DNA from: Modestobacter marinus
GTDB taxonomy: Bacteria > Actinomycetota > Actinomycetes > Mycobacteriales > Geodermatophilaceae
NCBI RefSeq assembly: GCF_011758655.1
Contig: NZ_JAAMPA010000003.1
Location: forward strand, 124,001-188,000
Length of the DNA stretch: 64,000 bases
Direction of reading: 5' to 3'
In this document: piece by piece, positions 1-5,167 of the stretch
Layout of the letters: each line of letters begins with the position of its first letter
Numbering within the stretch: the stretch's first letter is position 1
Notes under the pieces: generated by a model
What the model was told of the DNA's origin: nothing
The model's database searches: none
What the model saw: the letters and a program-made list of their open reading frames with translations, nothing else
Made by a program: the position numbers and the translations under genes

Positions 1-459
1 GGCCGGCTTCCAGATCCCGGCGTCCTCGACCGAGAGCAGCGCCTCGAACCGGTCGCGGACGCCGGCGCTGGTGAGCAGGCGCTCCGAGACCGCGGTCGAG
101 CCGTTGGTGAGGGTGACCAGGCGCCGGCCCTCGTCCCGGAGGGCACGGATCCCGTCGGGCACGTCAGGATGGACGGGCAGTGACCCGAAGCCCGCCAGCA
201 CGTGGTCGACGGCCTCGTCGAGGTCACGGTCGAGGTCGATCCCCTGCAGCACCGTGCGGAGGGCATCGGCGCCGATCTCGGCGAAGGGCCGGGAGGCGCC
301 GACGGCGGTCAGCGCGAAGCCGTCGCGCAGCAGCGAGGCGAACCACTGCTTCGCGAGGTGGGCGGGTGCGCCCACGTCGGTGAACCGCCCGGCCATCGGG
401 CTCATGTCCGACAGGGTCTCGTTGACGTCGAAGACGATGACGGACGGCGAGGTGGTCAC
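1..459 (-). CDS. Haloacid dehalogenase, type II (HAD superfamily), partial
   Basis: Predicted L-2-haloacid dehalogenase, which hydrolyses the carbon-halogen bond of 2-haloalkanoic acids through an aspartyl-ester intermediate in the cytoplasm. Only the first 153 codons are present; the frame is still open at the left edge of the window. The nucleophile motif D-V-N-E-T-L starts at Asp11, the second HAD motif T-N-G-S is at residues 118-121, and the conserved Lys of the I-W-K-P segment is Lys151. The GTG start at 459 overlaps the TGA of the DehI gene by 4 bases (GTGA), so translation is probably coupled. HAD motifs alone do not prove the substrate; the neighbouring DehI and Asp-nucleophile hydrolase make organohalide turnover the best guess. 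Confidence 0.85.
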   Translation of the reverse strand, partial: MTTSPSVIVFDVNETLSDMSPMAGRFTDVGAPAHLAKQWFASLLRDGFALTAVGASRPFAEIGADALRTVLQGIDLDRDLDEAVDHVLAGFGSLPVHPDVPDGIRALRDEGRRLVTLTNGSTAVSERLLTSAGVRDRFEALLSVEDAGIWKPA

Positions 460-1271
460 GGCGGGCTCCAGGCGGGAGGAGGACGGGTGTGGCGGCGGGT
501 CTGTGCGACGTCGGTGCTCGAGGCCACGAGGACGAGGACCCGCGGCAGGGTCGCGAGGTAGGCGTCCAGCACGGCGGCCATGCCGGGGCGGGCATCGGTC
601 AGGCCGGCCTCTTCCAGGGCGGCCGGCGAGGCGGCGACCCGCCACGGGAGGCCGCGCGCGACCTCGGACGCCGTCGCCTGCAGCTGGTCGGCGGCCCCTC
701 GGGTGGCCGCCACCTGGGGGCCTAGCGCCGCCCAGGCCGGCTCGAGGAGGTCCCGTCCGGCCAGCGAGCGCCAGACGGTGTTGACGATCGGCGTCTCCAG
801 CGCGGCGCAGATCTCGCCGTACAGCCGCGGCGCCGGGGCGTCCGCGGGGGAGGGGGCGGGGTCGGGTGGCTGCACCGGGCGGGGTGCGGGGGCGTTCCCC
901 GGCGCGGACGGCAGGTCGAGGTCGCCGTCCAGCGCGAGGCGCAGCCCGGCGACCAGGAGCAGCATCCGGCTCAGCGGACCGGCGAACTCCGCCAGGGCGC
1001 CGCGGACCTCGGTGTCGGCCGGTGGGGCCGCGACCGCACGCACCGAGGTGACGAGCTGCTGGGCCGCCGACCGGTACTCCTCGCGCGGCAGCACCGGGGC
1101 AGCCTGTTCGTGGGCCAGCACGAGGTACCCCGGGCAGAGGGCCAGGGACTTGAACAGGCTCGGGACGAACGGCATGCCCTCGAGCAGCTCGGCGTAGACG
1201 GCGGCGACGACGCCGGTGGCGTCGGCCTCCTCCACCATGGGGTAGCTCGCCATCACGGCATCAGTGGGCAC
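456..1271 (-). CDS. DehI-family 2-haloacid dehalogenase
   Basis: Resembles the DehI (group I) 2-haloacid dehalogenases, which are unrelated to HAD enzymes and displace the halogen by direct water attack; characterised members act on D- and L-isomers. The 271 residues hold the family's two tandem modules: an N-terminal copy (about 8-125) with A-V-Y-A-E-L, P-F-V-P-S-L-F and L-R-L-A-L-D-G, and a C-terminal copy (about 150-255) with L-Y-G-E-I, I-V-N-T-V-W-R-S-L-A and L-L-E-P-A-W-A-A-L. A Pro/Ala-rich linker (about 120-147) joins them. It overlaps the upstream hydrolase by 11 bases if it starts at ATG 1271; ATG 1253 is an alternative. It overlaps the HAD gene by 4 bases. Assignment rests on motif memory, not a search. 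Confidence 0.75.
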   Translation of the reverse strand: MPTDAVMASYPMVEEADATGVVAAVYAELLEGMPFVPSLFKSLALCPGYLVLAHEQAAPVLPREEYRSAAQQLVTSVRAVAAPPADTEVRGALAEFAGPLSRMLLLVAGLRLALDGDLDLPSAPGNAPAPRPVQPPDPAPSPADAPAPRLYGEICAALETPIVNTVWRSLAGRDLLEPAWAALGPQVAATRGAADQLQATASEVARGLPWRVAASPAALEEAGLTDARPGMAAVLDAYLATLPRVLVLVASSTDVAQTRRHTRPPPAWSPP

Positions 1272-2106
1272 GGTCGTCCTCCGGCGACGGGACGAGCAGG
1301 TCGTTCACGGCAGCCGCGACGACCTCCGGGTGGTCCTCGGGGGTGAAGTGCTTGCCGCCCGGGATCGGCCGCAGGGTCGTGCCGAGGTCGGCGGCGAGGC
1401 GGCGTCCGTACTCGACCTTCTGGAACTGGTCGACGTCACCCCACACTACGCGGGCCGGCAGGCCGAGTGAGGGCAGCCGGTCGGCGACGGCGAGGGTGTC
1501 GGCGACGTCGAGCGCGGCGACCTGGCGCATCAGGCTGCGGGCGGCGCCATGGGAGACGTAGTGCTGCCAGTGCACCCCGATGGACTCCAGCGCCCGGGCG
1601 CGGTCGTCGTGACCGCGGTGGATCAGCTGGACGAAGGAGGGGTAGAGGGCCAGCTCCGGCAGGTACCGCAGGACCGGTGCGCCGCGCTGCATGGCCTTGA
1701 CGCTGGGGATGGGCCAGGAGTCGTAGCAGACGGCGTTGGTGAGCACGATGCCCGAGAACCTGCTGGGCTCCCGGACGGCCGCGATCTGGGCCACCCCGCC
1801 GCCGAGGTCGTGGCCCACGAGGACCGCCGACTCCACGCCCACCAGGTCCAGCCAGCGCAGCAGCCGATCGGCCTGGGCGGCCAGCCCGAGGTCCCGGCCC
1901 TCACCGTCGGGGATGGAGCTGCCGTACCCGGCCAGCTCCAGCGCCAGCGAACGGCCGTCGACCAGCGGCATGACGTGGCGCCACAGCCGCGGCGAGGTCG
2001 GGATCCCGTGGACGAGGACGACGGGCGGTCCGGCACCGTGCTCCAGCCAGCGGATCGGCTCGCCGTCCAGGAGGTCCTCCTGCAGGTGCATGCCCGGCCC
2101 CGTCAC
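1261..2106 (-). CDS. Alpha/beta hydrolase with Asp nucleophile (haloalkane/fluoroacetate dehalogenase or epoxide hydrolase type)
   Basis: Cytoplasmic alpha/beta-hydrolase of 281 residues if translation begins at GTG 2106, which overlaps the VKOR-like stop as GTGA; ATG 2091 (Met6) is the alternative. The oxyanion-hole H-G-I-P is at 33-36. The nucleophile elbow is G-H-D-L-G-G with Asp100 in place of the usual Ser, the acid lies in G-D-V-D near 223-226, and the catalytic His is His253. An Asp nucleophile is the hallmark of haloalkane dehalogenases, fluoroacetate dehalogenases and soluble epoxide hydrolases, which cannot be separated from sequence alone. Its place in an overlapping operon with two further dehalogenase families favours a dehalogenase. 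Confidence 0.75.
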   Translation of the reverse strand: MTGPGMHLQEDLLDGEPIRWLEHGAGPPVVLVHGIPTSPRLWRHVMPLVDGRSLALELAGYGSSIPDGEGRDLGLAAQADRLLRWLDLVGVESAVLVGHDLGGGVAQIAAVREPSRFSGIVLTNAVCYDSWPIPSVKAMQRGAPVLRYLPELALYPSFVQLIHRGHDDRARALESIGVHWQHYVSHGAARSLMRQVAALDVADTLAVADRLPSLGLPARVVWGDVDQFQKVEYGRRLAADLGTTLRPIPGGKHFTPEDHPEVVAAAVNDLLVPSPEDDRAH

Positions 2107-2696
2107 GACCGGCCGCGCAGACGGCGGAGGGCGGCCCGCGCCTCGGGGAGTGCGAACGGCAGGGTGGCGACCTGGGCCACGGCGGCGACGGTGCACCAGG
2201 AGCAGACCTTGCGGTGCTTGGTGACCTGCTCGGCGAAGAGGTAGAGGCCGCCGCCGGCGTCGGCGGCGGTCTTCGCGGCCAGGGCCAGCGGTACCCACGG
2301 CATCGTCCGGGCCCGGTTCCGGTCGCCCATCCCGGCCAGGACCAGAGTGACGCCGGCACTGAGCAGCCCGAGGGCGGCGTCCGGGGTCCGCAGCTCCTGG
2401 TAGGCCTCCCCGGCGGCGTCCACGGCATCGGCGCCCAGGAAGGGCAGGGGCAGCTCCGGGACCCGGCGCAGCACGCCGAACTGGTAGAGCCCCACCACGC
2501 CCAGCGCGGCCGACGCCAGCGAGGTCAGCCCGGCCACCCGGCGACGCTGTTCCAGGAAGTCGCCGGCGCCGCGGCGCAGGTCGTCACTCACGCGCTCCGC
2601 CGCCGGCGAGCTCGAGCGGCCGATGCCTCCCGACCGCGGTCGTACGGAAGCGGCCTCCGGTCCGGCAGGACGGCGTCGTTCCGTCGTCGTTCGCAT
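2103..2696 (-). CDS. Vitamin K epoxide reductase (VKOR)-family membrane protein
   Basis: Small polytopic membrane protein of 197 residues with about four hydrophobic segments (around 55-75, 108-123, 133-150 and 165-185). Near the C-terminus it has C-S-W-C-T (Cys167/Cys170), the position of the quinone-facing CxxC of VKOR enzymes, which reoxidise thiol-disulfide partners. I see no second Cys pair, unlike canonical bacterial VKOR, so a redox partner would have to supply it. The ATG at 2696 is preceded by a strong GGAGGAGGA site. It is the first gene of the operon running into the hydrolase, DehI and HAD genes. Family assignment is moderate; a MauE/DoxX-like role is possible. Confidence 0.65.
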   Translation of the reverse strand: MRTTTERRRPAGPEAASVRPRSGGIGRSSSPAAERVSDDLRRGAGDFLEQRRRVAGLTSLASAALGVVGLYQFGVLRRVPELPLPFLGADAVDAAGEAYQELRTPDAALGLLSAGVTLVLAGMGDRNRARTMPWVPLALAAKTAADAGGGLYLFAEQVTKHRKVCSWCTVAAVAQVATLPFALPEARAALRRLRGRS

Positions 2697-2759
2697 GGGG
2701 TCCTCCTCCGATCGGGTACCCGGGGCATGCCCCCTGACGTGCCGGTGAACCGCGGGCGC

Positions 2760-2789
2760 GGGCAGGCCCTCCTCTCGGAGGACCTGCCC
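2760..2789 (-). terminator. Hairpin between CMD gene and VKOR operon
   Basis: Two 13-base arms (2760-2772 and 2777-2789) pair around a 4-base loop; read on the minus strand the only non-Watson-Crick pair is U-G. It sits 33 bases past the stop of the 2822-3364 gene and 64 bases before the VKOR-like start. It is most likely an intrinsic terminator without a U-tract, as is common in high-GC actinobacteria, or an attenuator for the downstream operon. Confidence 0.65.
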
Positions 2790-2821
2790 ACGCCGTCGTG
2801 CGCGCTGGTGCGCCCGACGGA

Positions 2822-3364
2822 TCAGAGCGCAGGAGCCGGCGGGAGGTCCAGGTCGGTCTGCACCAGGTGGTTGAAGTGGTTGGTGAAGAGGTTGAGCGCG
2901 ATGTGCACGGACACCTCGGTGAGCTCCACGTCGCTCCAGCCGGCGTCCAGCGCCGCCTGCCAGGTCGTGTCCTCGACCGTCCCGACGTTGCCGGTCGACT
3001 CGCGGACCAGCGCGAGCAGCGCGGCGAGCTTCGGGTCCTCGTCATAGGAGCCGGCGCGGATGGCGACCGTCTGTTCGGTGCTCAGCCCTGCCGCCTTCGC
3101 ACCGCCGGTGTGGGCGGCCTGGCAGTAGCGGCACTCGTCGACGTCCGCGACGACCAGCGCGATCGCCTCACGTGTGGCGGCGTCGAAGGTGCCGTGGTCG
3201 GCGATGACGTCCTGCAGCGCCGCATAGCTCTGGAGGACCACCGGCGCGTGGGCCATGGCCCCGTGGATGTTGAGCACCTTCCCGAACCGGGCCTCGAGCG
3301 CCTTGAGCGGGTCGCGGCTGCCCTCGGGCGCGTCGGCGACGGTGTGGACGGGGATGCGGGTCAT
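2822..3364 (-). CDS. Carboxymuconolactone decarboxylase/AhpD-like peroxidase family protein
   Basis: Protein of 180 residues in the AhpD-like fold family. The active-site signature C-R-Y-C-Q-A-A-H puts Cys78, Cys81 and His85 in the CxxC-x3-H arrangement used by alkylhydroperoxidases to reduce peroxides through a redox disulfide. ATG 3364 is preceded by GAGGAG; the leader (CCGATC, then GAGGAG, then CCCC before ATG) closely resembles that of the VKOR-like gene at 2696, suggesting shared ancestry or regulation. A terminator-like hairpin follows. The physiological substrate is unknown; peroxide or organic hydroperoxide detoxification alongside the dehalogenase operon is plausible. Confidence 0.85.
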   Translation of the reverse strand: MTRIPVHTVADAPEGSRDPLKALEARFGKVLNIHGAMAHAPVVLQSYAALQDVIADHGTFDAATREAIALVVADVDECRYCQAAHTGGAKAAGLSTEQTVAIRAGSYDEDPKLAALLALVRESTGNVGTVEDTTWQAALDAGWSDVELTEVSVHIALNLFTNHFNHLVQTDLDLPPAPAL

Positions 3365-3503
3365 GGGGTCTCTCCTCGGATCGGGACGTCGGACACGAGG
3401 AGAAGCCCGGACCGCGGCGTCCGCTGCCCGAATGGTCATCGAACAGACAGACTCGGCGGCTCCTCTGCCGGAACGCCGGAGGTGCTGCCGCCGTTGGACG
3501 GTC

Positions 3504-4322
3504 GTGACCTCCCGGCTCCTGCGACTCGTGCTGGTCCCGGCCGCTGTGGTGACGGTCGTGGCCGGGTGCGCCGACCCGGAGGCTCCCGCGGCTGCCGACC
3601 AGGTCGTCCTCGCGGCGGAGGAGGTCTTCGTCGAGCAGCCGGTCGTGGTGCCCGATCCCTCGGGCACGTCCGCCACGGTGCAGGTCGCCACGAGCCTCGA
3701 CATGGCCTGCGCCGTGGTGTTCGGCCGCGACGAGTCGCTGGGTGACGGGATCGCCACGGACGCCGACATGGCCGGTGGCGCCCATCGCGAGCACGAGGCG
3801 GTCATGCGCGGGCTGGAGCCCGACACCGAGTACTCCTACCGGGTGCAGGGGTCCGGCGCCGACGGTCGCCTGTACCGCAGCGAGCTCATGACCTTCCGGA
3901 CCGCTCCCGCGCCAGACGTCGAGGTCCCGGGTGAGAACGTGGCGCTGGGGGCAGAGGTCGTCGACGTCAGCTCCGAGTTCTCCGAGGGCTTCCCGGCATC
4001 CGCTGCCGTGGACGGCAACCTGGGCACGGAGTGGTCCAGCGCCGGCGACGGGGACGACGCATCGATCACCCTCGACCTCGGCCGGCCGGTCCCGATCGTG
4101 GGCGTGGCACTGCGGAGCCGGTCGATGAGCGACGGGTCGTCGATCGTGGAGACCTTCACCGTGACCGTCGACGACGGCGAGACCTACGGACCCTTCGAGG
4201 CCGGCACCTCCGGCGCGGTCAACGCGACCGACGTCACGGGCCAGGTGCTGAGGATCGACGCCGTGCAGACCACCGGCGGCAACACCGGCGCCGCCGAGAT
4301 CGAGGTCTACGCGGCCCCGTGA
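3504..4322 (+). CDS. Lipoprotein with fibronectin-like and F5/8 type C (discoidin) domains
   Basis: Predicted cell-surface lipoprotein of 272 residues. From GTG 3504 a short basic N-terminus (T-S-R-L-L-R) leads into a hydrophobic stretch ending in the lipobox V-A-G-C, with Cys21 the lipidation site; this geometry decided the start (ATG 3432 would add a long hydrophilic leader). Residues about 35-135 form a beta-sandwich resembling the N-terminal domain of purple acid phosphatases. Residues about 143-270 look like a discoidin/F5-8C module, which normally binds carbohydrate or cell-surface ligands. No catalytic domain is visible, so a binding or adhesion role is likely. It diverges from the CMD-family gene. 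Confidence 0.75.
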   Translation: MTSRLLRLVLVPAAVVTVVAGCADPEAPAAADQVVLAAEEVFVEQPVVVPDPSGTSATVQVATSLDMACAVVFGRDESLGDGIATDADMAGGAHREHEAVMRGLEPDTEYSYRVQGSGADGRLYRSELMTFRTAPAPDVEVPGENVALGAEVVDVSSEFSEGFPASAAVDGNLGTEWSSAGDGDDASITLDLGRPVPIVGVALRSRSMSDGSSIVETFTVTVDDGETYGPFEAGTSGAVNATDVTGQVLRIDAVQTTGGNTGAAEIEVYAAP

Positions 4323-4435: not shown

Positions 4436-5167
4436 GTGGACCTCGGGCGGTGGACGGCGCGGCTCCGCGCTGACGCCGCGGAGCTGACCTCGCAGGAGAT
4501 GCAGATCCGGGATGCCGCGTGGATCGCCCGGTGCGTGGGACGGGGCGCGGCAGCCCCGCTGGGCCCCGAGGACGTCGCCGCCCTCGCCGGGCGCATCACC
4601 CCCGCCGAGTTCCGGAGGGGAGAACCGGTCTTCGGTGGCGGGGCCGGTGACCGGCCCGGTGTGTGGATCGTCCGCAGCGGCCACATCGAGCTCGGCGTCG
4701 CGACCCCGCGAGGGAGGGTCGTCGTCGGGGTGCTGCGCCCCGGCGACGTCGAGGGAGACCTCCCGCTGCTGCTCGGCCTCCCGGTGCCGTACTCGGCGCG
4801 TGCGGTGGACGACACGGTGTGCCTCTACCTGTCGCCGGCCGACTTCGAGTCGCTGCTCGGCCGGCACCCGGCCGTGTCCCGGCGTTGGCTGTCCAGCGTG
4901 GCGCAGCGGCTGGCCACCAGCCACGGTCGGCTGATCTCGCTGCTCGGACGACCCCTGGTGGCCCAGGTCGCCGGCCTGCTGCTCGACGAGTCGGACGAGG
5001 GGGTGGTCCGGCTGCCGCAGCGCACACTCGCGGCGATGCTCGGTGTGGCCAGGCCCTCGCTCAACAAGGTGCTCAAGGACCTGGAGCGGCGGGGCCTGGT
5101 CGTCCTCGGCTACGGGGCCATCCAGCTGCTGGACGGCGACGGGCTCCGGCGGGTGTCCGACGCCTGA
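4436..5167 (+). CDS. Crp/Fnr-family transcriptional regulator
   Basis: DNA-binding regulator of 243 residues. A cyclic-nucleotide-binding-like beta-roll covers about 45-150, and a winged helix covers about 170-235 with L-P-Q-R-T-L-A-A-M-L-G-V-A-R-P-S-L-N-K as the helix-turn-helix. No Fe-S cysteine set as in Fnr is present, and the phosphate-binding R-S of true CRP is not evident, so the ligand is unknown. The start is GTG 4436, with GGGAGG nine bases upstream. It converges on the UAG-containing AhpD-like gene, so its targets are not implied by an operon. Confidence 0.85.
   Translation: MDLGRWTARLRADAAELTSQEMQIRDAAWIARCVGRGAAAPLGPEDVAALAGRITPAEFRRGEPVFGGGAGDRPGVWIVRSGHIELGVATPRGRVVVGVLRPGDVEGDLPLLLGLPVPYSARAVDDTVCLYLSPADFESLLGRHPAVSRRWLSSVAQRLATSHGRLISLLGRPLVAQVAGLLLDESDEGVVRLPQRTLAAMLGVARPSLNKVLKDLERRGLVVLGYGAIQLLDGDGLRRVSDA

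Follow-up and report, generated by a model that had tools for sequence, protein, structure and literature searches.

Haloacid dehalogenation or another use of dehalogenase folds

The window analysed here, a stretch of 64,000 nucleotides (G000:C3:124001-188000), begins with an operon in which three genes encode proteins of dehalogenase-type folds. The question raised by this locus is whether all three proteins remove halogens, as the original prediction proposed, or whether some of the folds serve another purpose. We tentatively favour a conserved detoxification cassette, probably linked to stress, with one haloacid dehalogenase at its centre; from the observed folds, residues, gene order and conservation we infer its activities, substrate, regulation and order of steps. 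The host is a soil actinobacterium. The genes of the cassette and its surroundings are:

1..459, minus strand: HAD type II protein (HAD), 5' part only in the window; full gene L009:11788-12459 = G000:C3:123788-124459, 223 aa (TIGR01428, group B signature)
456..1271, minus strand: DehI-fold protein, 271 aa, GTG start, without the catalytic Asp and Asn (profile and model matches)
1261..2106, minus strand: Asp-nucleophile alpha/beta hydrolase (ABH), GTG start lying within the stop region of VKOR (PF00561; alignment A8)
2103..2696, minus strand: VKOR-like protein with C165-S-W-C168 only (PF07884)
2697..2821, minus strand: leader upstream of the cassette with the palindromic GGGGCATGCCCC at about 2722-2733 (GGCATG recurrence)
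2822..3364, minus strand: AhpD-like peroxidase-related protein, 125 bases upstream of the cassette, a recurrent neighbour (PF02627)
4436..5167, plus (opposite) strand: Crp-family regulator, a recurrent neighbour and candidate regulator (PF00027 and PF13545)

Gene order and selection

The HAD gene extends 213 bases beyond the window edge. Overlaps of 4 (VKOR/ABH), 11 (ABH/DehI-fold) and 4 bases (DehI-fold/HAD) had been noted before and were correct when re-derived from the gene coordinates. The start codon yielding the 4-base VKOR/ABH overlap was present at 9/9 loci and the 11-base ABH/DehI-fold overlap at 11/11; a 4-base DehI-fold/HAD overlap was possible in only 3 of 12 loci and is therefore not conserved. 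The VKOR-ABH-DehI-fold-HAD block was found in L009, L039, L040, L041, L146, L147, L148 and L151 and, with HAD about 3 kb away, in L043; L042, L150, L038 and L044 carry partial blocks. Median NG86 dN/dS values were 0.33 for HAD, 0.26 for ABH and 0.16 for VKOR. The three dehalogenase-type folds of the original prediction are indeed present; their genes lie together, are conserved as a group and evolve under purifying selection. GGCATG recurred in 10 of the 11 cassette leaders compared (L042, which has no VKOR leader, was omitted), and the leader palindrome may be a functional element.

The HAD type II protein

The full HAD protein scored 175.5 bits on TIGR01428 against a cut-off of 125.4, with 114.6 bits for the part truncated by the window. 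Its nearest solved structures were an (S)-2-haloacid dehalogenase (7arp, E 5e-33) and an L-haloacid dehalogenase (2yml, E 1e-30). The signature of group B L-2-haloacid dehalogenases is given in excerpts of PMC8490876 as DETF(S/T)KYAHD, and its letters were mapped to columns by our own alignment with 7arp and 2yml. They correspond to D11, E14, T15, F40, T118, K151, Y157, A175, H177 and D180, and the signature, as those excerpts word it, was complete in 14/14 HADs, 10 of them family orthologues and 4 from outside the family; the HADs of L065 and L170 (frame shift near the 5' end) were omitted from this count. In every sequence criterion tested, HAD agrees with the characterised group B enzymes, and it is likely a haloacid dehalogenase, the activity being predicted. 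It shares with DehRhb (2yml) and ZgHAD (7arp) the full signature, including the His/Glu pair, and a TIGR01428 score above cut-off, and differs from them in being actinobacterial, distant in sequence, of predicted activity and encoded in an operon with ABH and the DehI-fold protein. Against the favoured reading, HAD resembles its best characterised relatives only distantly in sequence, was present in 22 of 112 family genomes and also occurs alone.

In the proposed reaction, Asp11 would attack the alpha-carbon of an L-2-haloacid or haloacetate-like acid, and water activated by His177/Glu14 would release the hydroxy acid. As the single likely haloacid dehalogenase of the cassette, HAD provides a direct entry point to the search for the substrate.

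Putative redox and regulatory neighbours

The VKOR-like protein scored 39.6 bits on PF07884 (cut-off 27.5). VKOR proteins have an active-site CxxC and a pair of loop cysteines; the VKOR-like protein shares the CxxC and differs from the family in that the loop pair is missing, the two cysteines of the CxxC being the only ones in 6/6 orthologues. The core of AhpD-like peroxidases is Glu-CxxC-His, and the AhpD-like protein (46.1 bits on PF02627) retains it, with E66, C78 and C81 in 8/8 rows and H85 in 7/8; it differs from the peroxidase-related family in its TIGR01926 score of 51.8, below the cut-off of 81.8. A Crp gene lies near the cassette in L041 and L146 and near ABH in L097 and L164. We identified no halide-transporter or haloacid-permease gene next to the block, which also tells against the favoured reading. 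On the basis of gene neighbourhood it is reasonable to propose a redox role for the VKOR-like and AhpD-like proteins, in which they would give thiol/peroxide redox cover, and Crp may regulate the block.

HAD type II proteins can act on other substrates, and the locus might instead be a general stress module, in which HAD cleaves a non-halogenated metabolite, the AhpD-like, VKOR-like, ABH, DUF427 and Crp proteins serve redox or electrophile stress and dehalogenation does not occur naturally. Crp and AhpD-like genes recur, and DUF427 adjoins the block or lies close to it in L040-L042 and L146-L151, which is consistent with such a module, as is the statement in excerpts of PMC8490876 that most HAD-superfamily enzymes have phosphates as substrates. 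The retention of the full group B signature, with its Phe and its His/Glu pair, in all 14 proteins argues against it, and we consider such a module rather unlikely.

The DehI-fold protein

Under our favoured reading of a cassette with one haloacid dehalogenase, the DehI-fold protein would have another function. It scored 17.6 bits on PF10778, below the gathering score of 28.9; DehI-fold proteins elsewhere scored 18.2-25.9 (three orthologues), 30.5 (L062) and 70.8 (L065). Its profile (A1) matched the (R)-2-haloacid dehalogenase 5gzx with E 2e-9, and its AlphaFold model superposed on 5gzy with Z 23.8 (rmsd 2.5, 235 residues; next unrelated row Z 4.5) and on 3bjx with Z 23.0. Because fold and profile agree despite the Pfam score, a spurious DehI match, which had been named as a possible weakness, was rejected, and the DehI two-repeat fold is real. 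The DehI family has a 6_1 knot, and the window protein has a short proline-rich linker.

In HadD AJ1, according to excerpts of PMC8554231, Asp205 is the water-activating catalytic residue and Asn131 assists it. The window protein has V166 in the Asp column and L100 in the Asn column, and in the family orthologues these columns hold Val/Ile (8/8) and Leu (8/8). The two true DehI genes of G003, a genome of the window's genus (L066 and L067), retain D and N. Since the water-activating residues are absent in 8/8 orthologues, the proposed breakdown of both haloacid stereoisomers finds no support. Compared with group I enzymes of the DehI/HadD AJ1 type (3bjx, 5gzy, 4n2x), the protein has the same all-helical two-repeat fold (Z 22-24, about 235 residues) and differs in these substitutions, in its shorter chain and, for the window protein, in falling under the Pfam cut-off.

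Purifying selection acts on the gene (median NG86 dN/dS 0.35, 28 pairs). A decaying pseudogene was ruled out by this value and by frames that are intact in most loci. The exceptions are L044, whose frame is broken at a contig edge, and L045, the second copy of G003, which lacks the DehI-fold gene and in which VKOR carries a stop and the frame of ABH is broken. The substitutions suggest a repurposed DehI-fold protein that probably has a job other than dehalogenation. It would keep the pseudo-dimer fold, give up water activation and bind a related small acid; alternatively, it could be a non-dehalogenating enzyme or a partner protein. A known fold appears repurposed within the cassette. If this is true, the DehI fold would be in selected, non-dehalogenating use inside a dehalogenation operon, of which we know of no described case.

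It could also be argued that the protein still dehalogenates through another water-activating residue, for example the invariant E14, E15, D115, D144 or D226, given its strong conservation under purifying selection and its intact fold. Both known water-activating positions are however hydrophobic in both repeats, with no invariant acid aligned to them, which makes continued dehalogenation improbable.

The alpha/beta hydrolase

ABH scored 74.7 bits on PF00561 (cut-off 25.8). With residues counted from position 2109, its triad consists of the nucleophile D101, the base H254 and the likely acid D227; D101 and H254 were found in 12/12 aligned rows of alignment A8, two of which are annotated haloalkane dehalogenases. 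The halide-binding residues, whose inspection had been suggested with the original prediction, are both absent: ABH has Ile36 at the HG-x-P position and Leu102 after the nucleophile, where haloalkane dehalogenases have Asn/Trp and Trp/Tyr. The orthologues have Ile/Leu and Leu at these positions in 9/9 rows, and N, W or Y in 0/9. Half of the outcome that was named as refuting the original prediction is thereby observed. Excerpts of PMC6920932 give the halide pairs by subfamily as Trp-Trp, Asn-Trp/Tyr or Asn-Trp, subfamily I having a cap Trp; our check covered the positions after the nucleophile and at HG-x-P alone. On NCBIfam NF002938 (haloalkane dehalogenase) ABH scored 92.2 against a cut-off of 241, the annotated Agrobacterium enzyme reaching 386. 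A haloalkane dehalogenase was rejected on these grounds. Fluoroacetate dehalogenases carry an Arg directly after the Asp nucleophile, and this identity was likewise rejected in view of Leu102.

A structure search ended in a tie among haloalkane dehalogenases, epoxide hydrolases, fluoroacetate dehalogenases and esterases. In epoxide hydrolases, cap tyrosines stabilise the substrate oxygen; the candidate cap tyrosines Y129 and Y184 of ABH are invariant in 6 aligned orthologues, in a cap that is modelled with low confidence. ABH shares with haloalkane dehalogenases of the LinB/DmmA/DatA type the fold, the Asp nucleophile, the HG-x-PTS motif and the His base, and differs from them in the Ile/Leu that replaces the Asn/Trp or Asn/Tyr pair, in its likely acid after strand 7 and in scores far under the NCBIfam cut-offs. 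It is probably an Asp-nucleophile hydrolase of non-haloalkane specificity, as predicted from these residues. Asp101-His254-Asp227 would open a substrate whose leaving group is not a halide (an epoxide, lactone or activated ester), perhaps a precursor or by-product of the compound handled by HAD.

Of the three dehalogenases predicted, HAD remains a likely one, and the DehI-fold protein and ABH are not supported for want of their Asp/Asn and halide residues. Because only HAD retains the parts needed for halogen removal, the other two probably have another job, and fold alone would likely misname two of the three, a likely annotation trap that is corrected here. A pathway of three working dehalogenases, taking a haloalkane or haloester and then both haloacid enantiomers, is accordingly very unlikely in the face of these residues and of the ABH score, even though three dehalogenase folds share one conserved operon. 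The excerpted account of Pseudomonas sp. PP3 (PMC12060670) offers a parallel, in that dehII, a HAD-type dehalogenase gene like HAD here, adjoins a gene of the dehI family; that dehI copy is itself called cryptic there and thought silent. The PP3 cluster as excerpted contains a permease, a sigma-54 activator and the degenerate dehI copy, whereas here the DehI-fold gene is conserved and selected and is joined by ABH and VKOR-like genes (PMC12060670).

Distribution of the cassette

In 13 of the 18 wider neighbourhoods examined, no ABH-DehI-fold-HAD block was present. In the class of G408, the DehI-fold protein was found in 2 of 66 genomes, one with just a fragment at a contig edge; across 396 genomes of the phylum 10 gave a match, full length only in G000 and G408. 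A search of genome contigs with the DehI-fold protein returned 2 loci, and 72,556 plasmid records contained no relatives at E 1e-3. Within the family of G265, 9 of 39 genomes carry ABH. Only one of them, G570, had not been counted already; its sequence agrees with that of G265 at 99.5-100% identity over most of HAD and throughout the ABH and DehI-fold matches, and it was excluded from the following count as not independent. Among 14 ABH orthologue loci outside the family, HAD was adjacent in 4 (L065, L088, L092, L098) and a DehI-fold gene lay within about 1 kb in 3 (L062, L065, L092); the link among the three genes is loose there, since ABH stood without either in 9 of the 14, several of them on short contigs.

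In two lineages of actinobacteria beyond the class, ABH has HAD, a DehI-fold gene or both as neighbours. Solitary HAD and ABH genes in many other genomes would fit a chance neighbourhood of unrelated hydrolases, but this was rejected as highly improbable, because the 4- and 11-base overlaps are conserved (9/9, 11/11) and the neighbours come together again in lineages outside the class with a different gene order. It is possible, if somewhat doubtful, that the genes form a conserved three-protein pathway spanning two or more deep lineages of actinobacteria. In it, a DehI-fold protein lacking Asp and Asn would have taken on a new reaction or become a binding partner, and its companions would be a true haloacid dehalogenase and an ABH without a halide site.

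Searches of the open-licence PMC literature gave no paper on this cassette, and the cassette of Geodermatophilaceae-type actinobacteria is apparently undescribed. A related ABH/AhpD/Crp group occurs in Deinococcus, where AhpD-like and Crp genes lie alongside an ABH orthologue; an AhpD-like gene adjoins ABH orthologues in L062 and on a Deinococcus plasmid.

Organization of the cassette

The cassette consists of four consecutive genes on the minus strand, in the order VKOR-like, ABH (an Asp-nucleophile alpha/beta hydrolase), DehI* (a DehI-fold protein without the catalytic Asp and its helper Asn) and HAD (HAD type II). The last runs past the window edge and was completed in L009, the same locus extended.

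2103-2696, minus, VKOR-like gene
1261-2106, minus, ABH gene
456-1271, minus, DehI* gene
459 leftwards beyond the window edge (whole gene: L009:11788-12459), minus, HAD gene
2822-3364, minus (same strand as the cassette), AhpD-like gene, 125 bases upstream
4436-5167, Crp-family regulator gene, beyond the AhpD-like gene

These coordinates bear out the overlaps of 4, 11 and 4 bases claimed in the original prediction. Within the family, the 4-base VKOR/ABH overlap was available in 9/9 loci and the 11-base ABH/DehI* overlap in 11/11; the 4-base DehI*/HAD option occurred in only 3/12.

Both cysteines of the VKOR-like protein, its only two, lie in a CSWC motif (6/6 orthologues). Full VKORs have a loop cysteine pair, which is missing from the VKOR-like protein in the same six orthologues. 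The AhpD-like protein retains Glu66, Cys78, Cys81 and His85. On the plus strand, 3255-4322 encodes an F5/8 type C domain protein, an apparent lipoprotein with a weak match to the purple-acid-phosphatase N-domain.

Ten of the 11 leaders compared carry a GGCATG element 5' of the cassette (window 2697-2821; L038-L041, L043, L147, L148, L150, L151); it is missing in L146, and L042 was excluded as it has no VKOR leader. The element is a possible operator or promoter box, although its recurrence is seen in homologous DNA. The window's leader also holds the palindrome GGGGCATGCCCC.

HAD is the likely dehalogenase

Full-length HAD scored 175.5 bits against TIGR01428 (cut-off 125.4). Its best solved relatives were 7arp (E 5e-33), which we take to be ZgHAD, and 2yml (E 1e-30). 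The latter is DehRhb (PMC8554231), and ZgHAD and DehRhb are described as characterised L-2-haloacid dehalogenases of 'group B', with the signature DETF(S/T)KYAHD (PMC8490876). In the alignment the window's HAD carries the corresponding D11, E14, T15, F40, T118, K151, Y157, A175, H177 and D180, as do 13 further HADs, one with Ser at 118. H177 and E14 align with His183 and Glu21, given as key residues of DehRhb (PMC8554231). HAD is the single credible dehalogenase of the cassette.

DehI* and ABH without known dehalogenase residues

DehI* scored 17.6 against the Pfam DehI model, under the cut-off of 28.9; a profile of eight DehI* orthologues matched 5gzx at E 2e-9. Every DehI-fold structure listed aligned with its predicted model (pLDDT 77, pTM 0.79) at Z 21.8-23.8; the next row was at Z 4.5. 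According to PMC8554231, HadD AJ1 relies on Asp205 together with Asn131, and the structure of its D205N mutant has been determined with bound substrate; the Asp205 place is Asn in 5gzx and Asp in 5gzy. In DehI* the Asp column is Val/Ile and the Asn column Leu in 8/8 family orthologues, and the pseudo-equivalent places in the other repeat (39 and 242) are Leu in 8/8. Outside-lineage DehI-fold proteins (L064, L065; alignment A6) have Tyr and Leu at the Asp and Asn columns. Since both residues are absent in family orthologues and outside-lineage proteins alike, their loss is old and general in the cassette. The genuine DehI genes L066 and L067 of G003, a genome of the window's genus, keep both. 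Median dN/dS of DehI* was 0.35, with 28/28 pairs below 0.47, a rough measure by NG86 on GC-rich genes; such apparent purifying selection speaks against a gene in decay.

Genuine DehI genes that retain the catalytic Asp lie at L066:6990-7892 and L067:3075-3980 (G003) and at L069 (G497), with the DehI* cassette in the same genomes; that of L066 comes after an MFS-transporter-like gene, as read from its translation. The DehI family figures among those with a 6_1 knot (PMC11184937), which DehI* may share; its proline-rich linker (residues about 118-147) is of low confidence in the model.

In A8, the alignment of ABH with two annotated haloalkane dehalogenases, nucleophile Asp101 and base His254 are present in 12/12 rows, and Asp227, after strand 7, in all 10 rows having that position; Asp227 is likely the acid of the triad. 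The halide pair of haloalkane dehalogenases is given as Trp-Trp, Asn-Trp/Tyr or Asn-Trp, depending on subfamily (PMC6920932). The two halide positions compared, that of the HG-x-P motif and the one following the nucleophile, are Asn and Trp or Tyr in the two haloalkane dehalogenases, and Ile/Leu and Leu in nine ABH orthologues; subfamily I has a cap Trp. The fold search gave a tie between hydrolase families. We call ABH a putative Asp-nucleophile hydrolase, with no substrate assigned.

The original prediction of three dehalogenases is partly supported: the conserved cassette combines one likely haloacid dehalogenase with two dehalogenase folds that lack their known dehalogenase residues. It resembles the pairing described for Pseudomonas sp. 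PP3 (PMC12060670), in which dehII and a cryptic gene of the dehI family are neighbours, accompanied by a permease and an activator. Unlike the degenerate PP3 copy, the DehI-fold gene of the cassette is conserved, and the cassette adds the ABH and VKOR-like genes. No description of the cassette was found in open-licence literature.

Distribution within and outside the family

Within the Geodermatophilaceae, the HAD profile matched 22/112 genomes and the VKOR profile 15/112; the DehI* query matched 8/97 relatives.

Table. Cassette gene arrangements at family loci (L147 and L047 are one locus; in L151 the match covers only the later part of HAD)
VKOR-ABH-DehI*-HAD: L009, L039, L040, L041, L146, L147, L148, L151
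VKOR-ABH-DehI*-HAD, HAD about 3 kb off behind an old-yellow-enzyme gene: L043
ABH-DehI*-HAD without VKOR: L042, L150
DehI*-HAD: L038; L044 (contig edge)
HAD without other cassette genes: L149, L152, L153, L154, L157, L158, L159, L162, L163
HAD together with AhpD-like and Crp genes: L160
HAD plus a distant VKOR relative: L161
VKOR plus a distant HAD: L156
Cassette remnants: L155

Decayed copies were seen at L045 (G003:C181; VKOR and ABH broken, HAD intact) and L155 (G537; pieces of AhpD, VKOR and ABH). DUF427 genes often neighbour the cassette or ABH (L040-L042, L146-L151 and, outside the family, near ABH at L094 and L097); a tblastn search around the window's copy (L009) gave none.

Among 396 genomes of the phylum, the ABH profile matched 13 at E 1e-55, the window's included, which gave 14 loci outside the window's genome. 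HAD adjoins ABH in L065, L088, L092 and L098 of these 14, and a DehI-fold gene lies within about 1 kb of ABH in L062, L065 and L092. Neither was found at nine ABH loci (L087, L089, L090, L091, L093-L097), several of them on short contigs. In L064, HAD adjoins a DehI-fold gene and ABH is missing. Plasmid pDEIPE01 of Deinococcus peraridilitoris (L164:7001-8848) carries an ABH orthologue, 52% identical, as part of a block that also encodes a peroxidase-related AhpD protein, a thioredoxin and two Crp/Fnr regulators. The recurring co-location outside the family, together with this plasmid block, makes a functional link between the cassette proteins likely as far as gene neighbourhoods indicate.

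The pDEIPE01 block lies close to metal-transport genes. On the Agrobacterium C58 Ti plasmid (L165:497-2031), a peroxidase-related AhpD-like gene directly precedes an annotated haloalkane dehalogenase, so the pairing of an AhpD-like protein with an Asp-nucleophile hydrolase may extend beyond the cassette.
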